Below are positions 19,335 to 29,613 of a DNA stretch of 64,000 bases, in pieces (the first letter of the stretch is position 1; every line of letters starts with the position of its first letter). The stretch is taken from contig JAKFXL010000023.1 of assembly GCA_021731365.1 (NCBI GenBank), positions 1 through 64,000 of the forward strand, written 5' to 3'. A program made the position numbers and the translations under genes. The notes below the pieces were generated by a model. It had not been told where the DNA came from and made no database searches. It saw only the letters and a program-made list of their open reading frames with translations. This stretch comes from Gammaproteobacteria bacterium (GTDB lineage: Bacteria > Pseudomonadota > Gammaproteobacteria > Tenderiales > Tenderiaceae).

Positions 19335-20873
19335 TTATACGACGATCTGACGACGGCACCCTAATCGCCACGCAACCCCCAGCAAAATAGACATCAACGT
19401 CACAATCAGCCAGTTGCCCGTCACCGCATAAGGGGTCATGCCACTGCGTGGCTGAATCGTGGCAGTAGCCACGGCAATCTCAAACTGCGGCACCCGCGCC
19501 AAAAACTGCCCCTTGGCGTCGATCACTGCCGTAATTCCGGTATTGGTCCCCCGCAGCATCGGCCGCTCAGTCTCCAGCGCCCGCATCCGTGCCATCTGCA
19601 GATGTTGTGGCGGTGCCCAGCTATCATCAAACCAGGCATCGTTACTGACATTCACCAAAAAGGTCGCCTCCGGTAGGGCACGAATCATCTCCTCACCAAA
19701 CGCATCCTCAAAGCAGATAGCGATACCGGCACGTTGCCCCGCCACCCGTAGCGGCGTCTGCTCGGCCCCTCCGCGACTGAAATCGGACATCGGCACCTGC
19801 ATAAAATCGACAACCCCACCCAGCAACCACTTCATGGGGAGATACTCGGTAAAGGGCACCAGATGGTTTTTATGGTACATACCCCGCTCAGTGCCCGACC
19901 CCAGGCTGAGCATGGTGTTGTAGTAACGCCCCCCTTTTTCTTCATAGTTAAGCAGACCGATCAGCAGATCCGTATCGTGCTGGTCTGCCTCCTGCTCCAG
20001 ATCATCGAGGAAGGGCCTGACCTCATGATAAAAGGCCGGCAGTGCAGTCTCCGGCCAGATAATCAGGTCGGCATCCCAGTGCTGCCGGGTCAACTCAGTA
20101 TAGAGTTCGATGGTCGAAAGGCGGCTCTCGGGGCTCCACTTCACATCCTGCGATACATTCCCCTGCAACAGCGCCACCTTAATTGGTGCACCCTCCGGCT
20201 CAGTCCAGTAACCCTTCTGCATCGGCCACGCCAACGCCCATATAACAATCAATGCCAAACCATAGTAGCGACGCCAATCCCGGTCGAGCAGCAGCGCTAC
20301 CAGTAGCGCCGCATTCAGCGCCACCAACCAGGAGAGACCAAATACACCTATCCATGCCGCCCACCCGGCCAACAGCGTATCGGTCTGGCTGTAACCGAGA
20401 CTGATCCAGGGGAAGCCTGTCATAAACCAGCCACGCACCCACTCCACCAGGACCCAGGCGGCAGGCATCACCAGCAACAACTTAATCCGGGTGTAACGTT
20501 TTTCAAAGCGGGGCGGGAAAAAGCGGGCAATCAGATAACCCAGCAGTGTTGGGAAGAGGGCCATCACCAGCACCAGCAGCAAGGTCAAGAAGAGCGATAA
20601 CGGCAGGCTAACGTAGCCGTGGTAGTAGATGCTGACAAAAATCCAGCTGACACCCACACCAAAAAAACCGACACCAAACAGCGCGCCACGACGACAGGCA
20701 CCCCGCACATCCGCAAAGAGCCAGAGCGCAAACAGCAGCGCAATACCAAAAATTGCCACCGGCCACCACCCCAGTGGTGCAAATGCCAATGGCGTAGCTG
20801 CACCGGCCAGCAACGCCAACAGATCAGCACGCCAGCCGGCGCTATAGCGTTGCAATGTGGGAAGCGACTGCAT
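19335..20873 (-). CDS. lnt: Apolipoprotein N-acyltransferase
   Basis: Inner-membrane enzyme adding the third acyl chain to lipoproteins before Lol export. The N-terminal ~200 residues form multiple helices (PLAFAPLGWWPVAIFGIALL and following), and the periplasmic nitrilase domain carries the Glu-Lys-Cys triad in WPETALPAFYHE, HKNHLVPFTEYLP and ICFEDAFGEE. It has 512 residues, the normal length. It is the last gene of the miaB-phoH-ybeY-ybeX-lnt block. In related genomes leuS-lptE-holA often follows closely, while here 12.8 kb intervenes. LptE at 2831 and other lipoproteins would be its substrates. Confidence 0.95.
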   Translation of the reverse strand: MQSLPTLQRYSAGWRADLLALLAGAATPLAFAPLGWWPVAIFGIALLFALWLFADVRGACRRGALFGVGFFGVGVSWIFVSIYYHGYVSLPLSLFLTLLLVLVMALFPTLLGYLIARFFPPRFEKRYTRIKLLLVMPAAWVLVEWVRGWFMTGFPWISLGYSQTDTLLAGWAAWIGVFGLSWLVALNAALLVALLLDRDWRRYYGLALIVIWALAWPMQKGYWTEPEGAPIKVALLQGNVSQDVKWSPESRLSTIELYTELTRQHWDADLIIWPETALPAFYHEVRPFLDDLEQEADQHDTDLLIGLLNYEEKGGRYYNTMLSLGSGTERGMYHKNHLVPFTEYLPMKWLLGGVVDFMQVPMSDFSRGGAEQTPLRVAGQRAGIAICFEDAFGEEMIRALPEATFLVNVSNDAWFDDSWAPPQHLQMARMRALETERPMLRGTNTGITAVIDAKGQFLARVPQFEIAVATATIQPRSGMTPYAVTGNWLIVTLMSILLGVAWRLGCRRQIVV

Positions 20874-20890
20874 CGTTGTCCAATCGCTCC

Positions 20891-21772
20891 CTAGCGATCC
20901 TCATCCTCAACGTCGGGGAGTACATCCTCAGCCACCAGGCTCACCTCGAGCAGATGGATACGGCGGCTATCGGCACTCAATACCTTTATCTGGTAACAGC
21001 CAATCGTAATCTCCTCACCACGCTCCGGCATACGGCTGAACGCCTGCATCACCAGACCGCCAATCGTATCAAACTCCTCATCACTGAAATCACACTTGAA
21101 GTAGTCGTTAAACTCCTCAATAGGCGTCAATGCCTTGATAATAAAACGGTCGTCGTTCTGCTTTTTGATAAAGATATCTTCATCAATATCGTGTTCATCC
21201 TCAATCTCGCCGACAATCTGCTCCACCACATCCTCAATCGTCACCAGACCGGCAGCACTGCCAAACTCGTCCACCACAATCGCCATATGGTTACGGTTGG
21301 CGCGAAAATCCTTGAGCAGAATGTTGAGCCGTTTGCTCTCCGGCACAAAGACTGCGGGGCGCAACACGTCACGCACATTGAATTGAAGACGTCGGTCACC
21401 GATAAAATAGGGCAGCAGATCCTTCGCCAGGATCAACCCCACCACCTCATCGATATCCTCACCGATGACGGGGAAACGGGAGTGGCCCGACTCAGTAATC
21501 ACCGGCAGCAACTCATCCAGGGTGGCGTCCTGCTGCAATACCGCCATCTGCGCCCGTGGAATCATAATATCGCGCACCTGCATCTCGGAGACCTGCATCA
21601 CCCCCTCGATCATCATCAGCGCATCCACCTCCAGCAGGTCACGCTGCTGGGCATCACGCAACAGCCCCAGGAGTTCACTCTTGTCTCTCGGCTCCCCCCC
21701 CGACAGCACATGGGTCAAACGCTCCAGCCAGGAGCGTGGAACACCACCACTGCTCGTTCGATCTTCGCTCAT
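20891..21772 (-). CDS. ybeX: CorC/YbeX-type CBS and transporter-associated domain protein
   Basis: A 293-residue soluble protein. Two CBS domains lie at ~65-190 (start DIMIPRAQMAVL; GHSRFPVIGEDIDEVVGLI; VVDEFGSAAGLVTIEDVVEQ), and a C-terminal CorC_HlyC domain at ~205-290 (DEEFDTIGGLVMQAF). Homologues are linked to Mg/Co efflux and, through the conserved ybeY neighbour, to ribosome maturation. The VTIEDVVEQIVGEIEDE segment is a strong family marker. It lies between ybeY and lnt, 45 and 17 bases away respectively, in the conserved order. Confidence 0.93.
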   Translation of the reverse strand: MSEDRTSSGGVPRSWLERLTHVLSGGEPRDKSELLGLLRDAQQRDLLEVDALMMIEGVMQVSEMQVRDIMIPRAQMAVLQQDATLDELLPVITESGHSRFPVIGEDIDEVVGLILAKDLLPYFIGDRRLQFNVRDVLRPAVFVPESKRLNILLKDFRANRNHMAIVVDEFGSAAGLVTIEDVVEQIVGEIEDEHDIDEDIFIKKQNDDRFIIKALTPIEEFNDYFKCDFSDEEFDTIGGLVMQAFSRMPERGEEITIGCYQIKVLSADSRRIHLLEVSLVAEDVLPDVEDEDR

Positions 21773-21817
21773 TGCTCCTCGATCCTTTGATTACTCGTTT
21801 GCACGCTCTTCATATAC

Positions 21818-24860: not shown

Positions 24861-25763
24861 CTAGTTATTCGCAGGGTTCAGTTTGAGCAAACTATCTGCC
24901 TGAGCCATTGGCAGCCATAAGGCAAGTTGAGCCAGTATGTCGTGGAGTGGACGATGGGTGCGCCGAGCGGCGGCGGTAACGCACTTTAGCAGACAGCGGT
25001 TTGTGGTTTTGGCCTTTGCTGCCAACAGAAAATAAAACTGCCAGTCGGTCAATTGCTCGCAGGAGACATGATAATGAGCGCGTTTCACGCAGAGGTAACT
25101 GATGCCAGTTTCAGGCGGTTCGGCAGGGACACTGCCACGGAGCAAGGCTTGAAAAGCGCCCAACGGGTGATGGGTAACCACCAGGCGAGTGGTTTCTGGA
25201 AGAACAACCTCAATGTTGCCGCCCAGTAACAGGTCAAAAGGGTCAACTATTTCAAAGTCACTGCTTTCGAACCCCGTTGCTCGTAACGACGCGGCCATGG
25301 CCCGCTCGATTTGGGCTAAATCAAGAGGAAAAACCAGCTTTCCATCATCTGCCGCTTTAACCGAAGCACTTTGAGAGCGGCGAAGAAACTGAGCAAATCC
25401 GTCACCGAGTTCATACAGTGAAAAGCCGCGGGGTGGGTGGCTGCTCAGATATGCACGGCAGAAAAACTCAAACAGCGATTCGCCAAGCAAACGTTGCAAT
25501 GCTGGGTAATCCGCCTTCAGGCAGGCAAACAGGCGTAACCAATACCCCTGGGCATAAATATCAAGGCGACTATGAGGTGAGATGCCCGGTGGCACTTCAA
25601 TAACATCCTCGATCATCCAGCTGCGGGTTTTCCGGGCGTGTGCCAAACCGTCCGGAAGCCCTTCAGGTGCCGTGATTGCGCTCATCATCCAGCGCTGCAG
25701 GGAGGCAAGATCGGGAGAGTCCGAGTGGTTATTTTGCGCCATTGTACGAGTTTTTATATCCAT
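24861..25763 (-). CDS. DUF2063 partner protein of the MNIO enzyme (BufC/HvfC-like)
   Basis: A 300-residue protein of the DUF2063 family. The N-terminal domain has the typical SRLDIYAQGYWLRLFACLKA, LGESLFEFFCRAYLSSHP and GFSLYELGDGFAQFLRRS signatures. The second half (~140-290) is less conserved. In bufferin and related pathways such proteins bind the precursor and assist the DUF692 oxidase. It overlaps the end of the DUF692 gene, so the two are translationally linked. ATG 25763 overlaps by 35 bases and ATG 25742 by 14; neither has a good ribosome site. It is the third gene of the ferritin-like/DUF692/DUF2063 operon. No DoxX-like BufD/HvfD gene accompanies it. Confidence 0.85.
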   Translation of the reverse strand: MDIKTRTMAQNNHSDSPDLASLQRWMMSAITAPEGLPDGLAHARKTRSWMIEDVIEVPPGISPHSRLDIYAQGYWLRLFACLKADYPALQRLLGESLFEFFCRAYLSSHPPRGFSLYELGDGFAQFLRRSQSASVKAADDGKLVFPLDLAQIERAMAASLRATGFESSDFEIVDPFDLLLGGNIEVVLPETTRLVVTHHPLGAFQALLRGSVPAEPPETGISYLCVKRAHYHVSCEQLTDWQFYFLLAAKAKTTNRCLLKCVTAAARRTHRPLHDILAQLALWLPMAQADSLLKLNPANN

Positions 25764-26694
25764 TACTGGGGATGTTGGTCAGTTGAAAATCGATAGGGGT
25801 AGAGAGCACTGTCTGTTTATCGACTGATGCAACAGGCGTAGATGTGAGTGTATCGGGCATGACGCCGTTCAACATTAAATGCCTAGCTTTGTTGAGTTCG
25901 GCGAGAAGATCGGGGTAGTTGGGTATCTTAGCATCCCACTCGAGCAGGGTAGAAACACCTCCCGTCAACGTTTGAGCAAGCGAATAGAGCTCCCAAACAG
26001 GTGCCGGAACGGGCGCATCGTGAGTGTCAACCATATACTCTTCGCAGAGGGTCGGCCCCGCCAGATGGATTTGCACCACATGGTCATGGGGTATTGAGCG
26101 GATGTAATGCTCCGCATCAAAACGGTGATTATGGGCGCTGACATAGACGTTGTTCACATCGAGTAACAGTCCGCACTGGGTTGCTTCAACCAGTTCCGTG
26201 ATGAACTCCCACTCAGTCATGGTAGAAGAACGGAATTGAACATAGCTGCTGGGGTTTTCTATGATCAGCGGACGTTCAAGAATCTCCTGAACCTCTCGCA
26301 CCCGTTGTGTTACATGTTTCAACGACGCTTCATTAAACGGGAGTGGTAAAAGGTCGTGGGAGTTGTGACTGCCCAGTCCTGTCCAACACAGATGGTCGGA
26401 TATCCAGGCGGCATTGACGCGCCCAGCAAGTTTTTTCAACTTGTCGAGGTAGTCTCGGTTCAAGGGTGACGCACTGCCAATCGAAAGGGATACGCCGTGC
26501 ATCACAATAGGAATATCTGTTGATAACCGCTCCACCACACTGTTGGTGTAACCCGAGTTATCCATAAAATTTTCAGAGATGATTTCGAACCAGTCAACAC
26601 GTAGCCCCCCGGACAAAATCTCCGGGAGGTGTTGTGTACGCAGGCCGACACCGAAACCCAGGTTAGGCAGACCCAAACGGCTCTTCTTTTGCAT
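25729..26694 (-). CDS. DUF692 multinuclear non-heme iron oxidase (MNIO, MbnB/BufB-like)
   Basis: A 321-residue TIM-barrel enzyme of DUF692. Members modify Cys or other residues in ribosomally made precursors, for example to oxazolone/thioamide (MbnB) or thiooxazole (BufB). Conserved metal-ligand candidates are visible: His66 (VMHGVSLSIG), Asp100-His101 (ISDHLCW), Glu146-Asn147 (IIENPSSY), Asp179/Asn181 (LLLDVNNVYV), His188/His190, His210 (QIHLAG), Asp223/His225 (VDTHD), and Glu252/Asp254 (LEWD). The N-terminal GFGVGLRTQHLPEIL is typical. The gene begins 11 bases after the ferritin-like gene and overlaps the DUF2063 gene. The usual short precursor peptide is absent; the likely substrate is the large protein upstream. 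Confidence 0.92.
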   Translation of the reverse strand: MQKKSRLGLPNLGFGVGLRTQHLPEILSGGLRVDWFEIISENFMDNSGYTNSVVERLSTDIPIVMHGVSLSIGSASPLNRDYLDKLKKLAGRVNAAWISDHLCWTGLGSHNSHDLLPLPFNEASLKHVTQRVREVQEILERPLIIENPSSYVQFRSSTMTEWEFITELVEATQCGLLLDVNNVYVSAHNHRFDAEHYIRSIPHDHVVQIHLAGPTLCEEYMVDTHDAPVPAPVWELYSLAQTLTGGVSTLLEWDAKIPNYPDLLAELNKARHLMLNGVMPDTLTSTPVASVDKQTVLSTPIDFQLTNIPSNGYKNSYNGAK

Positions 26695-26705: not shown

Positions 26706-28637
26706 TTAGTTCGGCGGTATAACGGTACGCAGATCGTTTGCCGCAGGTTTGCTTGGGGCTGGGCTGCCGGGGTTTTTACTGGCATAGATCGCTGTATAAG
26801 CGGCCCATGCCGCGTCGTACACCTTCTCGTTACTGGTGAAGGAGAGCGTATTCGGCGGTATGGCTGCACCGGTATCAATGTCGATTACATCCATTGTTCC
26901 ACCGCCTGGCACACTGAGCAGCTGCCAATTTGAGATTGGCGCGCCGCACCCTCCTTTTTGGGCACAGGTATTGTCGCTGGGGGCAATATAGTTTCCAGTC
27001 GCATTTTTAACTGGATAGCCGCACCCGCCCTGCCCTTTGTGCAAATTAGAGCCGGAGCAGGTATGGAAGGCAGAGATATCTGCACAGTTGTTGCCGGGGT
27101 TGGTGATACTCAACCCCTGACAAGCGTGATACTCGTCTGTAGTGGTGGGGGTCGGAAGAGCCGCTGAAAGATCCGGGGCAGCACCCATCACTGCCCAATA
27201 CAACGACATGCGATCTCCTGATGCCCTCATTGCTTGGTTGGGGAATGCTTTTGTACTATCGCCCCAGGAGAGGGTCAGCGCACTATTGATGCCGTTGATA
27301 GCACCTACAATAAGGCTATTCAGGAGCTCTTCAGAGCCGGTTTTCAACCCATTAAGGGCATTAGCGACATCCGTCGGCGTAGGCAAAGCAGGATTAGGAA
27401 CATAATCACTGGTTTGAAGATCGGCCCCCGTCCAGGCATTGCCCGCTGCAAACCACTGCGTAAAGGTCATGAATCCATCTGTAGCGATCACATCGGTTAA
27501 GTTGTTGAAGCGCTCCCAATGGTCAATCTCATCTCCGGTAACACGTGCGTCAGCGTCGCCAGAGCCAGGATAATCGATGGCAAGCGCGGCTTTATCCGGT
27601 TGAAACTGCAATTGAACATCATTGGTTGCCACGTGATCGATAAAGGTTGTTTTGTTGTCAACAATGACGGCCCCGACGCGCTCCTGAAGATAGAGACGAA
27701 AACCCTTAAGGGCGTTTTTGATGCCGCCTTCGCCTTGATCGGAAATACCCCTGATCATATCTGCCGCCTGAATAATCGCCAGTGAAGGATCAGATGCACT
27801 AATCTGTGTAGGCATACGGGGATATTCAGGATTGTGGTATTTCGTCATCCCGTTAAACACATCTCGCTGCTTGCTTAAATTTGTAGCGTCGAACATTTTT
27901 GTCCATAAAGTCTCCCCATCGCTGTACTCAATGGTGATGTACTTGAGCAAACAGTTATACATCCAGCCGATGGTGCCAAAGAGTGGCAGATCCTTTTCTG
28001 TATTTGCACTTGCCCAGTTAACAAAAGGCACAGCCGGGAAATAGTTGTCACGCGCATCAGGCTTAATATCGGCAAGGGCGACCTCATGTGACTGCTCAAT
28101 GGCCAGAAACAGATTGATCTGCTCCTGATTCAATTCACCGATGTCGACATTGACCGAGGCGTAAGTCATCGTATCTGTCAGATCGAGGATATGGGGGATT
28201 ACGGTGTTAGTCGGCCCATAACAGCCCCAGCCACCCGCTGCGTTTTCCAGAAGAGAGCCGGTAAAAAACTTAGGCGTGACGCCCAGCACAACGGCCAGGT
28301 TAGCCGCCAATTGCAAATGCAGCATCTCCTGAATGAAGACACTAAACATGGTGTTGTACGCCTCTTGATTGGGCGTAAGCACTGTGCCAGGAGGTGTGGG
28401 TGTTGTCGACATGCCCGCCCAAAGACGACCCTTAGCAAGCGGGTTGCTAATTTTATGGGTGCCCTGAATTGATGACATGGCACACAGATAGAGTGGGATT
28501 GTGAAATTTTCCACATTGACGGCACCTTGGGCCAGTGCTGCTACCGCCGACTTGTCCAGATCAAGATTAGAGAGATCACGCTTTGTGATAGGCATAAAGT
28601 TTTTAGGGATAACACCTTTAAGCGCAGCTTCAGACAT
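26706..28637 (-). CDS. Ferritin-like (VioB-type) protein with C-terminal MNIO-type Cys motif region
   Basis: A 643-residue cytoplasmic-looking protein without signal peptide. ATG 28637 has AAGGA 8-9 bases upstream. The N-terminal half matches the ferritin-like domain seen in VioB/iminophenyl-pyruvate dimer synthases: VENFTIPLYLCAMSSI (Glu43), FIQEMLHLQLAANLAVVLG (Glu104, His107), then Glu181/Glu185 and GTIGWMYNCLL. These are plausible diiron ligands. The C-terminal part has six Cys at 506, 518, 527, 539, 558 and 564, in ACQGLS, NNCADI, HTCSGSNLHKGQGGCGYP and NTCAQKGGCGAP. The KGQGGCG repeats recall Cys motifs in DUF692 substrates. An 80-residue tail follows. It is the first gene of the DUF692/DUF2063 operon. 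I infer that it is both enzyme-like body and modified substrate; its reaction is unknown. Confidence 0.75.
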   Translation of the reverse strand: MSEAALKGVIPKNFMPITKRDLSNLDLDKSAVAALAQGAVNVENFTIPLYLCAMSSIQGTHKISNPLAKGRLWAGMSTTPTPPGTVLTPNQEAYNTMFSVFIQEMLHLQLAANLAVVLGVTPKFFTGSLLENAAGGWGCYGPTNTVIPHILDLTDTMTYASVNVDIGELNQEQINLFLAIEQSHEVALADIKPDARDNYFPAVPFVNWASANTEKDLPLFGTIGWMYNCLLKYITIEYSDGETLWTKMFDATNLSKQRDVFNGMTKYHNPEYPRMPTQISASDPSLAIIQAADMIRGISDQGEGGIKNALKGFRLYLQERVGAVIVDNKTTFIDHVATNDVQLQFQPDKAALAIDYPGSGDADARVTGDEIDHWERFNNLTDVIATDGFMTFTQWFAAGNAWTGADLQTSDYVPNPALPTPTDVANALNGLKTGSEELLNSLIVGAINGINSALTLSWGDSTKAFPNQAMRASGDRMSLYWAVMGAAPDLSAALPTPTTTDEYHACQGLSITNPGNNCADISAFHTCSGSNLHKGQGGCGYPVKNATGNYIAPSDNTCAQKGGCGAPISNWQLLSVPGGGTMDVIDIDTGAAIPPNTLSFTSNEKVYDAAWAAYTAIYASKNPGSPAPSKPAANDLRTVIPPN

Positions 28638-28763
28638 GTTTATGGTCCTTGTTAAATGAAATGAATACTTCACATGTTGTTTTCAAATGTAAGCCCTTGC
28701 ATCGGCAGCCCCATCATTTTCATTAACCTTTATTTTTATCCCCTAAACTGCCTCAACAGCCCC

Positions 28764-28995: not shown

Positions 28996-29550
28996 TCATC
29001 TCTTAAGGCTATAGATATTGGCGCTCCAATAACTGCTTTTATGCTCAAGGGGTGCTACCCACCCTGCCGCCACCAGCGCCTTGGCGATCAAGCGATTCAT
29101 AATGCCGTGCCCCACCAGCAGTACCGGCCCTTTTTCCGCCAGAGTAATCAGCCGCAGGGCCGCTGCCTTGGCTCGCGATTTAGTCTCACCCAATGAATCA
29201 ACACCCCTGCTATAGCCACAAAGCCATAGCAGGCGGAACAGCACCACCCAGATACCCGGTGGAAGAGGCAAGAGTCGCCATTGGGCATACGGCAGTGGCG
29301 CTTCACAGAATAGTGGGTCAATCAGAGGATGGGCACACCCCAGCGCCTGTGCTGACGAAAGGGCTCGGGGCAGGGGGCTGGTGATAACGGTTGTCTCTGG
29401 GTCAATCAACGTCAACAGATTTTTGGGGGCACTCTCCATGGCCACCACGGCTTGGTTGTACTGATCGATCCACCTCCCCATCTCTGCCGCACGGCACCAG
29501 CCGGTTACAGGCAGCAGCGGCTTACCGTGGCGCATGAGGGTGATTTTCAT
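28996..29550 (-). CDS. Histidine phosphatase family protein
   Basis: A 184-residue member of the phosphoglycerate-mutase-like superfamily. The catalytic LMRHG motif lies at residues ~5-9, the second Arg in TSPLPRALSSAQAL, and the second catalytic His in LLVGHGIMNRLIAK. ATG 29550 is chosen because MKITLMRHGKP is the standard opening; the frame extends to 29601 without family support. The substrate is unknown: such proteins dephosphorylate sugar phosphates, nucleotides or proteins. A moderately hydrophobic segment (IWVVLFRLLWLCGYS) is unusual and could be a buried helix. It lies 63 bases downstream of the ammonium transporter in the same direction. Confidence 0.85.
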   Translation of the reverse strand: MKITLMRHGKPLLPVTGWCRAAEMGRWIDQYNQAVVAMESAPKNLLTLIDPETTVITSPLPRALSSAQALGCAHPLIDPLFCEAPLPYAQWRLLPLPPGIWVVLFRLLWLCGYSRGVDSLGETKSRAKAAALRLITLAEKGPVLLVGHGIMNRLIAKALVAAGWVAPLEHKSSYWSANIYSLKR

Positions 29551-29613
29551 GACAAAAGAGCCTGCCACCCCACACTGAAAGGAGAGGTAGCGTGACTCCA
29601 CCGCCTTGCAACA

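Follow-up and report, generated by a model that had tools for sequence, protein, structure and literature searches.

A gene cassette from a member of the Tenderiaceae (Gammaproteobacteria) joins a ferritin-like protein with a conserved Cys-rich block to an MNIO (DUF692) enzyme and a DUF2063 partner, and we consider it fairly probable that the latter pair modifies the former, the Cys residues of its loop being converted to thiooxazoles that would bind Cu(I). Taken part by part, the block is very likely an MNIO substrate; by analogy with the bufferins, thiooxazole is probably the product on its Cys residues, and the chances that copper is the metal of the modified loop are about evenly balanced. 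The cassette lies in the first 64,000 nucleotides of contig JAKFXL010000023.1 (the whole stretch analysed, hereafter the window); its features are collected in Table 1.

Table 1. Features of the cassette in the window, with strand and main evidence.
Feature	Position	Strand	Evidence or remark
Gene of the 643-aa ferritin-like protein with Cys block	26706..28637	minus	ATG start; 73 homologues aligned
PF12902 ferritin-like domain	27717..28529	minus	Pfam E 8.4e-18, 65.5 bits (cut-off 22.3)
Six-Cys block, residues 506-564	26946..27122	minus	Cys kept in 72-74 of 74 sequences; low pLDDT
BufA2-like core motif HTCSGSNLHKGQGGCG, C-x5-[C/H]-x5-C	27018..27065	minus	Family: HTCRGSNxCKAQGGCG
His533 codon CAC	27039..27041	minus	73 of 74 sequences have Cys at this position
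Second conserved motif NTCAQKGGCGAP	26937..26972	minus	Family: DNKCxxFGGCAVP
Conserved C-terminal segment (residues 566-643), following the block	26709..26942	minus	Confident in models; outside the 3hl1 match
MNIO gene (DUF692/PF05114), bufferin-maturase type	25729..26694	minus	Pfam and NCBIfam models
DUF2063 gene, type 1 MNIO partner	24861..25763	minus	PF09836 match

The ferritin-like gene is contained in a minus-strand ORF (26706-28673) encoding 655 residues from a GTG start at 28673, or 643 residues from an ATG at 28637. Counted from this ATG as residue 1, six Cys are situated at 506, 518, 527, 539, 558 and 564 (spacing 12, 9, 12, 19, 6), exactly where a preliminary description of the DNA had placed them, and HTCSGSNLHKGQGGCGYP and NTCAQKGGCGAP were both confirmed in the block. 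The same description regarded Cys as sparse in the rest of the protein, which indeed contains only three more. At least six Cys in 59 residues occurred in 0.19% of 20,000 same-composition shuffles of the window protein; together with the conservation described below, this rules out chance clustering. No signal peptide was apparent at the N-terminus, inspected by eye and by hydropathy only. A phage origin of the cassette was discarded, with no PHROG match found. Elsewhere in the window, a 311-aa open frame on the plus strand (20855-21790) is antisense to a 293-aa minus-strand ORF (20891-21772), and most probably reflects a frame artefact rather than a gene.

A scan of GTDB genomes provided 73 homologous loci, from Pseudomonadota and one myxobacterium (Minicystis); since they were gathered with patterns from the whole protein, distant forms may be missed. 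C506, C527, C539, C558 and C564 are invariant in all 74 sequences (the homologues plus the window copy), C518 is kept in 72, and the window copy lacks two further linker Cys that are aligned in 67 and 63 sequences. The family block can be written as HACQG...C...YHTCRGSNxCKAQGGCGFVQ...GGGxCG...(variable Cys-containing linker)...SAPSDNKCxxFGGCAVPISASQ. The preliminary description had proposed aligning homologues as a check: the Cys and GGC motifs are kept, with a linker of variable length and Cys number between them; homologues devoid of the Cys and still linked to DUF692, the case it had set against its own idea, were not found. Its suggestion that the His of LHKG replaces an expected Cys also holds (Table 1), and one sequencing error does not explain this His, since its codon is two bases away from any Cys codon. 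Family proteins mostly contain 8-12 block Cys, as delimited by a regular expression, and the window copy 6; the latter is thus a Cys-poor member of the family with one Cys replaced by His. In the Sphingomonas loci L043, L047, L049 and L056, the linker is expanded to CGTPTPSPTP-like repeats, with about 20 Cys per whole protein.

The AlphaFold2 model of the window protein, built with 53 homologues, has a mean pLDDT of 84.7 and a pTM of 0.88, with pLDDT values below 50 at residues 500-508, 516-546 and 551-565. For a homologue from Massilia whose Cys set is fuller, the model again gives low block values (means of about 31-65). In these models, the Cys block is predicted as a disordered loop that separates the confident ferritin-like fold from a small C-terminal segment, which comprises about 79 residues, is conserved to the last ones, and may represent a docking element for the modifying enzymes. 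The six-Cys block of the preliminary description stands, and its placement "near the C-terminus" of an "enzyme-like" protein is refined: this conserved segment follows the block, and the rest corresponds to a ferritin-like PF12902 protein.

By fold, residues 15-491 match 3hl1_A (Caulobacter CC_0557) with a Z of 27.8 and an rmsd of 2.9 over 281 residues; the block and the C-terminal segment fall outside this match. Mn catalases come next at about Z 7; together with other four-helix folds (about Z 7 and below), they were set aside as weak, the lack of further folds proving nothing in itself, and a PDB sequence search with the ferritin-like protein gave insignificant matches only. The 3hl1/PF12902 proteins and the block family share a common fold with five conserved columns (E43, E104, H107, E181 and, downstream of the PF12902 domain, H373). 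These are five positions of the Glu, ExxH, Glu, ExxH set that a dinuclear (diiron or dimanganese) ferritin-like enzyme would use; the Glu of the last ExxH is lost in most family members. The Glu located three residues before H373 is present in the window protein; it occurs in 6 of 53 family members vs. 8 of 10 unlinked PF12902 proteins. By their fold and conserved Glu/His residues, PF12902 proteins look like metalloenzymes. Mn catalases possess a similar five-ligand set, which we take as a lead only.

The ferritin-like gene lies directly before the MNIO gene and then the DUF2063 gene in the window and in 72 of the 72 loci with readable downstream sequence (the contig of the 73rd ends early); in the window, the MNIO gene begins about 12 bp downstream of the ferritin-like gene, and the MNIO and DUF2063 genes share 35 bp. 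The full-length PF12902 proteins in 398 Pseudomonadota genomes are of two kinds: MNIO and DUF2063 genes adjoin those bearing the block, whereas the block-less relatives lack the C-terminal segment as well and no MNIO adjoins them (0 of 11 in the surrounding 6-17 kb or so, two of these regions being cut by contig ends). The three-gene order was found in further cassettes (G141, G606 and Pseudoalteromonas), and also in a divergent second lineage (G450/L142) whose ferritin-like protein gets a score of just 50 bits from the family model. The latter (L142, G450:C10:1000-11166) encodes a 744-aa PF12902 protein with 21 Cys in the frame, its own block (HACMGLNSCK...HHCHVLNDCKHQGGC...NNECKSMGSCATP) and extra GGC-type Cys at the extreme C-terminus.

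No other conserved neighbour gene of the cassette was found in the compared loci. DoxX, sigma-factor and NrsF genes, often accompanying bufferins, do not appear as recurring cassette neighbours, and SigF promoter boxes such as those of Caulobacter copper-response operons were absent from the 72 loci. A wider conserved cluster was rejected: with flanking genes picked mechanically, the neighbours differ among genomes, and the recurring ones look like clade synteny. Among 369 same-class genomes, one credible standalone copy of the block was detected (L079/L143), other weak matches resembling chance frames. In this locus (G063:C67), the tail HSCKGMNSCKGMPGKSKRRRRR of a frame whose start is cut off by the contig end lies right before MNIO and DUF2063 genes, an apparent occurrence of the block motif on what looks like a small MNIO precursor peptide.

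The neighbour that the preliminary description took for a DUF692 gene is confirmed as such, its product matching PF05114 with 349.2 bits (cut-off 25; E 1.7e-104). Its best NCBIfam model is NF050167 (MNIO_BufB; 348.7 bits, above the cut-off of 310), it falls under the cut-off of the HvfB model, and it can be aligned with 3bww and 8hci, MNIO-family proteins of solved structure. The DUF2063 protein matches PF09836 with 69 bits (cut-off 27.2; E 4.4e-19) and does not pass the cut-off of the HvfC model. In the window's genome, a single MNIO and a single PF12902 protein, the ferritin-like one, were found.

The block motif had been proposed as typical of DUF692 substrates, and it matches the cores of BufA2 bufferins. 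BufA2 peptides from other genomes read HCYGVNxCKGQxDCK...CKGQNACKGQGF, and a CxGxNxCKGQxxC core with C-x5-C-x5-C spacing is common to them and the block (family consensus CRGSNxCKAQGGC, the middle Cys being His in the window). When 34 family blocks were scanned against NCBIfam, 15 matched BufA2 (NF050166) weakly (best E 0.008), and only one other model was matched, once; none of the 34 reached the NF050166 cut-off (60 bits), the window block gave no match, and NF050166 has zero matches in the window's genome. With hhalign, the block scored 28.3 against the BufA2 profile, beating 60 of 60 column-shuffled controls (19.6 or lower). Furthermore, MNIO and DUF2063 genes follow in BufA2 systems as they do in the window cassette, and the MNIOs belong to the same larger group. 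On the other hand, BufA2 precursors are peptides of about 80-170 aa with signal peptides, and the block family comprises proteins of about 640-790 aa with none apparent; by size, lack of a signal peptide and a score below the BufA2 cut-off, the ferritin-like protein is not a bufferin by membership. Besides these comparisons, tandem BufA2 units with two HCYGVNxCKGHNDCK repeats per precursor were observed in L114, L118 and L120, and a BufA2-like match in a 397-aa frame (G392) was rejected, being an ordinary peptide of the BufA1-like type whose frame stays open upstream.

In the MNIO tree, which has long branches and an arbitrary root, the cassette enzymes form one clade (support 98/88), adjoined by that of L142 (100/92), and group with the BufA2-linked MNIOs (100/100) to the exclusion of all sampled BufA1-like enzymes but one. 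FonBC, a Lys-Cys type enzyme, does not process NACKG motifs (PMC13097082), so Cys-Lys motifs such as those of the block would need a BufA2-type MNIO, in agreement with the tree.

Under the explanation we favour, the DUF2063 protein would dock the ferritin-like substrate, as DUF2063 partners present precursors to MNIOs, and the MNIO would oxidise loop Cys to 5-thiooxazoles in the cytoplasm, with about 4 H lost from each, by analogy with the thiooxazoles that bufferin MNIOs make on Cys (PMC12452194) and with a related system in which each Cys loses 4 H (PMC12538549). The modified loop and the remaining thiols would then bind a soft metal in the cytoplasm, most likely Cu(I); thiooxazole-type bufferin peptides bind copper (PMC13097082). 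The ferritin-like domain would act as folded carrier, and a dinuclear metal site of its own may be present in it. Modification need not reach every block Cys, and conservation at some block positions could reflect metal binding by unmodified residues.

An alternative that we regard as unlikely is that the MNIO pair converts the block into a product other than thiooxazole, i.e., a redox or catalytic group for use by the ferritin-like protein instead of a copper site. Several MNIO chemistries exist (Table 1 of PMC12452194), the cassette MNIOs make up a clade of their own, the substrate is enzyme-like with no apparent signal peptide, and the window carries His in place of one Cys; nonetheless, the nearest motif and the nearest MNIO model are both of the bufferin type, whose reported product is thiooxazole. 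It seems distinctly improbable that the MNIO pair has a different substrate and the block binds metal in unmodified form, as a zinc, iron-sulphur or metallothionein-like element. Metal binding by the thiols of the paired Cys and GGC motifs is conceivable, and the change from Cys to His fits a ligand swap, but block and MNIO pair always occur together, block-less relatives are without MNIO, the gap between the ferritin-like and MNIO genes is usually too short for a further precursor gene, the window's genome has one MNIO only, and the block is predicted to be disordered. Finally, the metalloenzyme-like appearance of PF12902 proteins would suit a tailoring enzyme acting on a small precursor encoded elsewhere, a very remote prospect given that the bufferin motif sits in the ferritin-like protein itself and that the upstream stretch checked in the window contains no Cys-rich small ORF save frames overlapping the neighbouring gene (28996-29601), which were rejected as a hidden precursor.

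Besides the BufA2 systems, the ferritin-like protein has a close parallel in the long or fused MNIO precursors (Buf_EGKCG/EF-hand and TIGR04222) described by Antoine et al. (2025; PMC12452194), where, as here, a Cys-containing, partly unstructured region belongs to a larger protein adjoined by an MNIO. Those precursors carry signal peptides or membrane segments, whereas the block family is a soluble ferritin-like protein, and TIGR04222 systems rather have type 2 partners, in contrast to the type 1 (DUF2063) partner of the block family. According to the same survey, some MNIO precursors are proteins, and type 1 partners correlate with Sec export of the precursor (PMC12452194); the block family, in which the partner is of type 1 and no signal peptide is apparent, is an exception to this correlation. 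The survey makes no mention of ferritin, its supplementary files possibly listing the family. In the papers searched, the family was not described, and no study connected MNIOs with PF12902 or ferritin-like proteins.

The MNIO substrates described are mostly small peptides, and the action of these enzymes on proteins is a standing question in the literature. The cassette suggests that small peptides are not the only targets of MNIO enzymes, which would also act on a loop within a big folded protein; over 70 natural examples place the motif in a large folded protein with an invariant gene order, so that the protein-substrate question becomes directly testable. More tentatively, the MNIO-made loop may constitute a second site in a widespread cytoplasmic ferritin-like family, combining a dinuclear Fe- or Mn-type centre and thiooxazole-bound Cu(I) in one polypeptide; if true, such a two-site ferritin-like protein would be a metalloenzyme built post-translationally rather than a peptide metallophore. 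The block family points to a cytoplasmic role for MNIO chemistry and, if our reading is true, would give PF12902 proteins a functional link.
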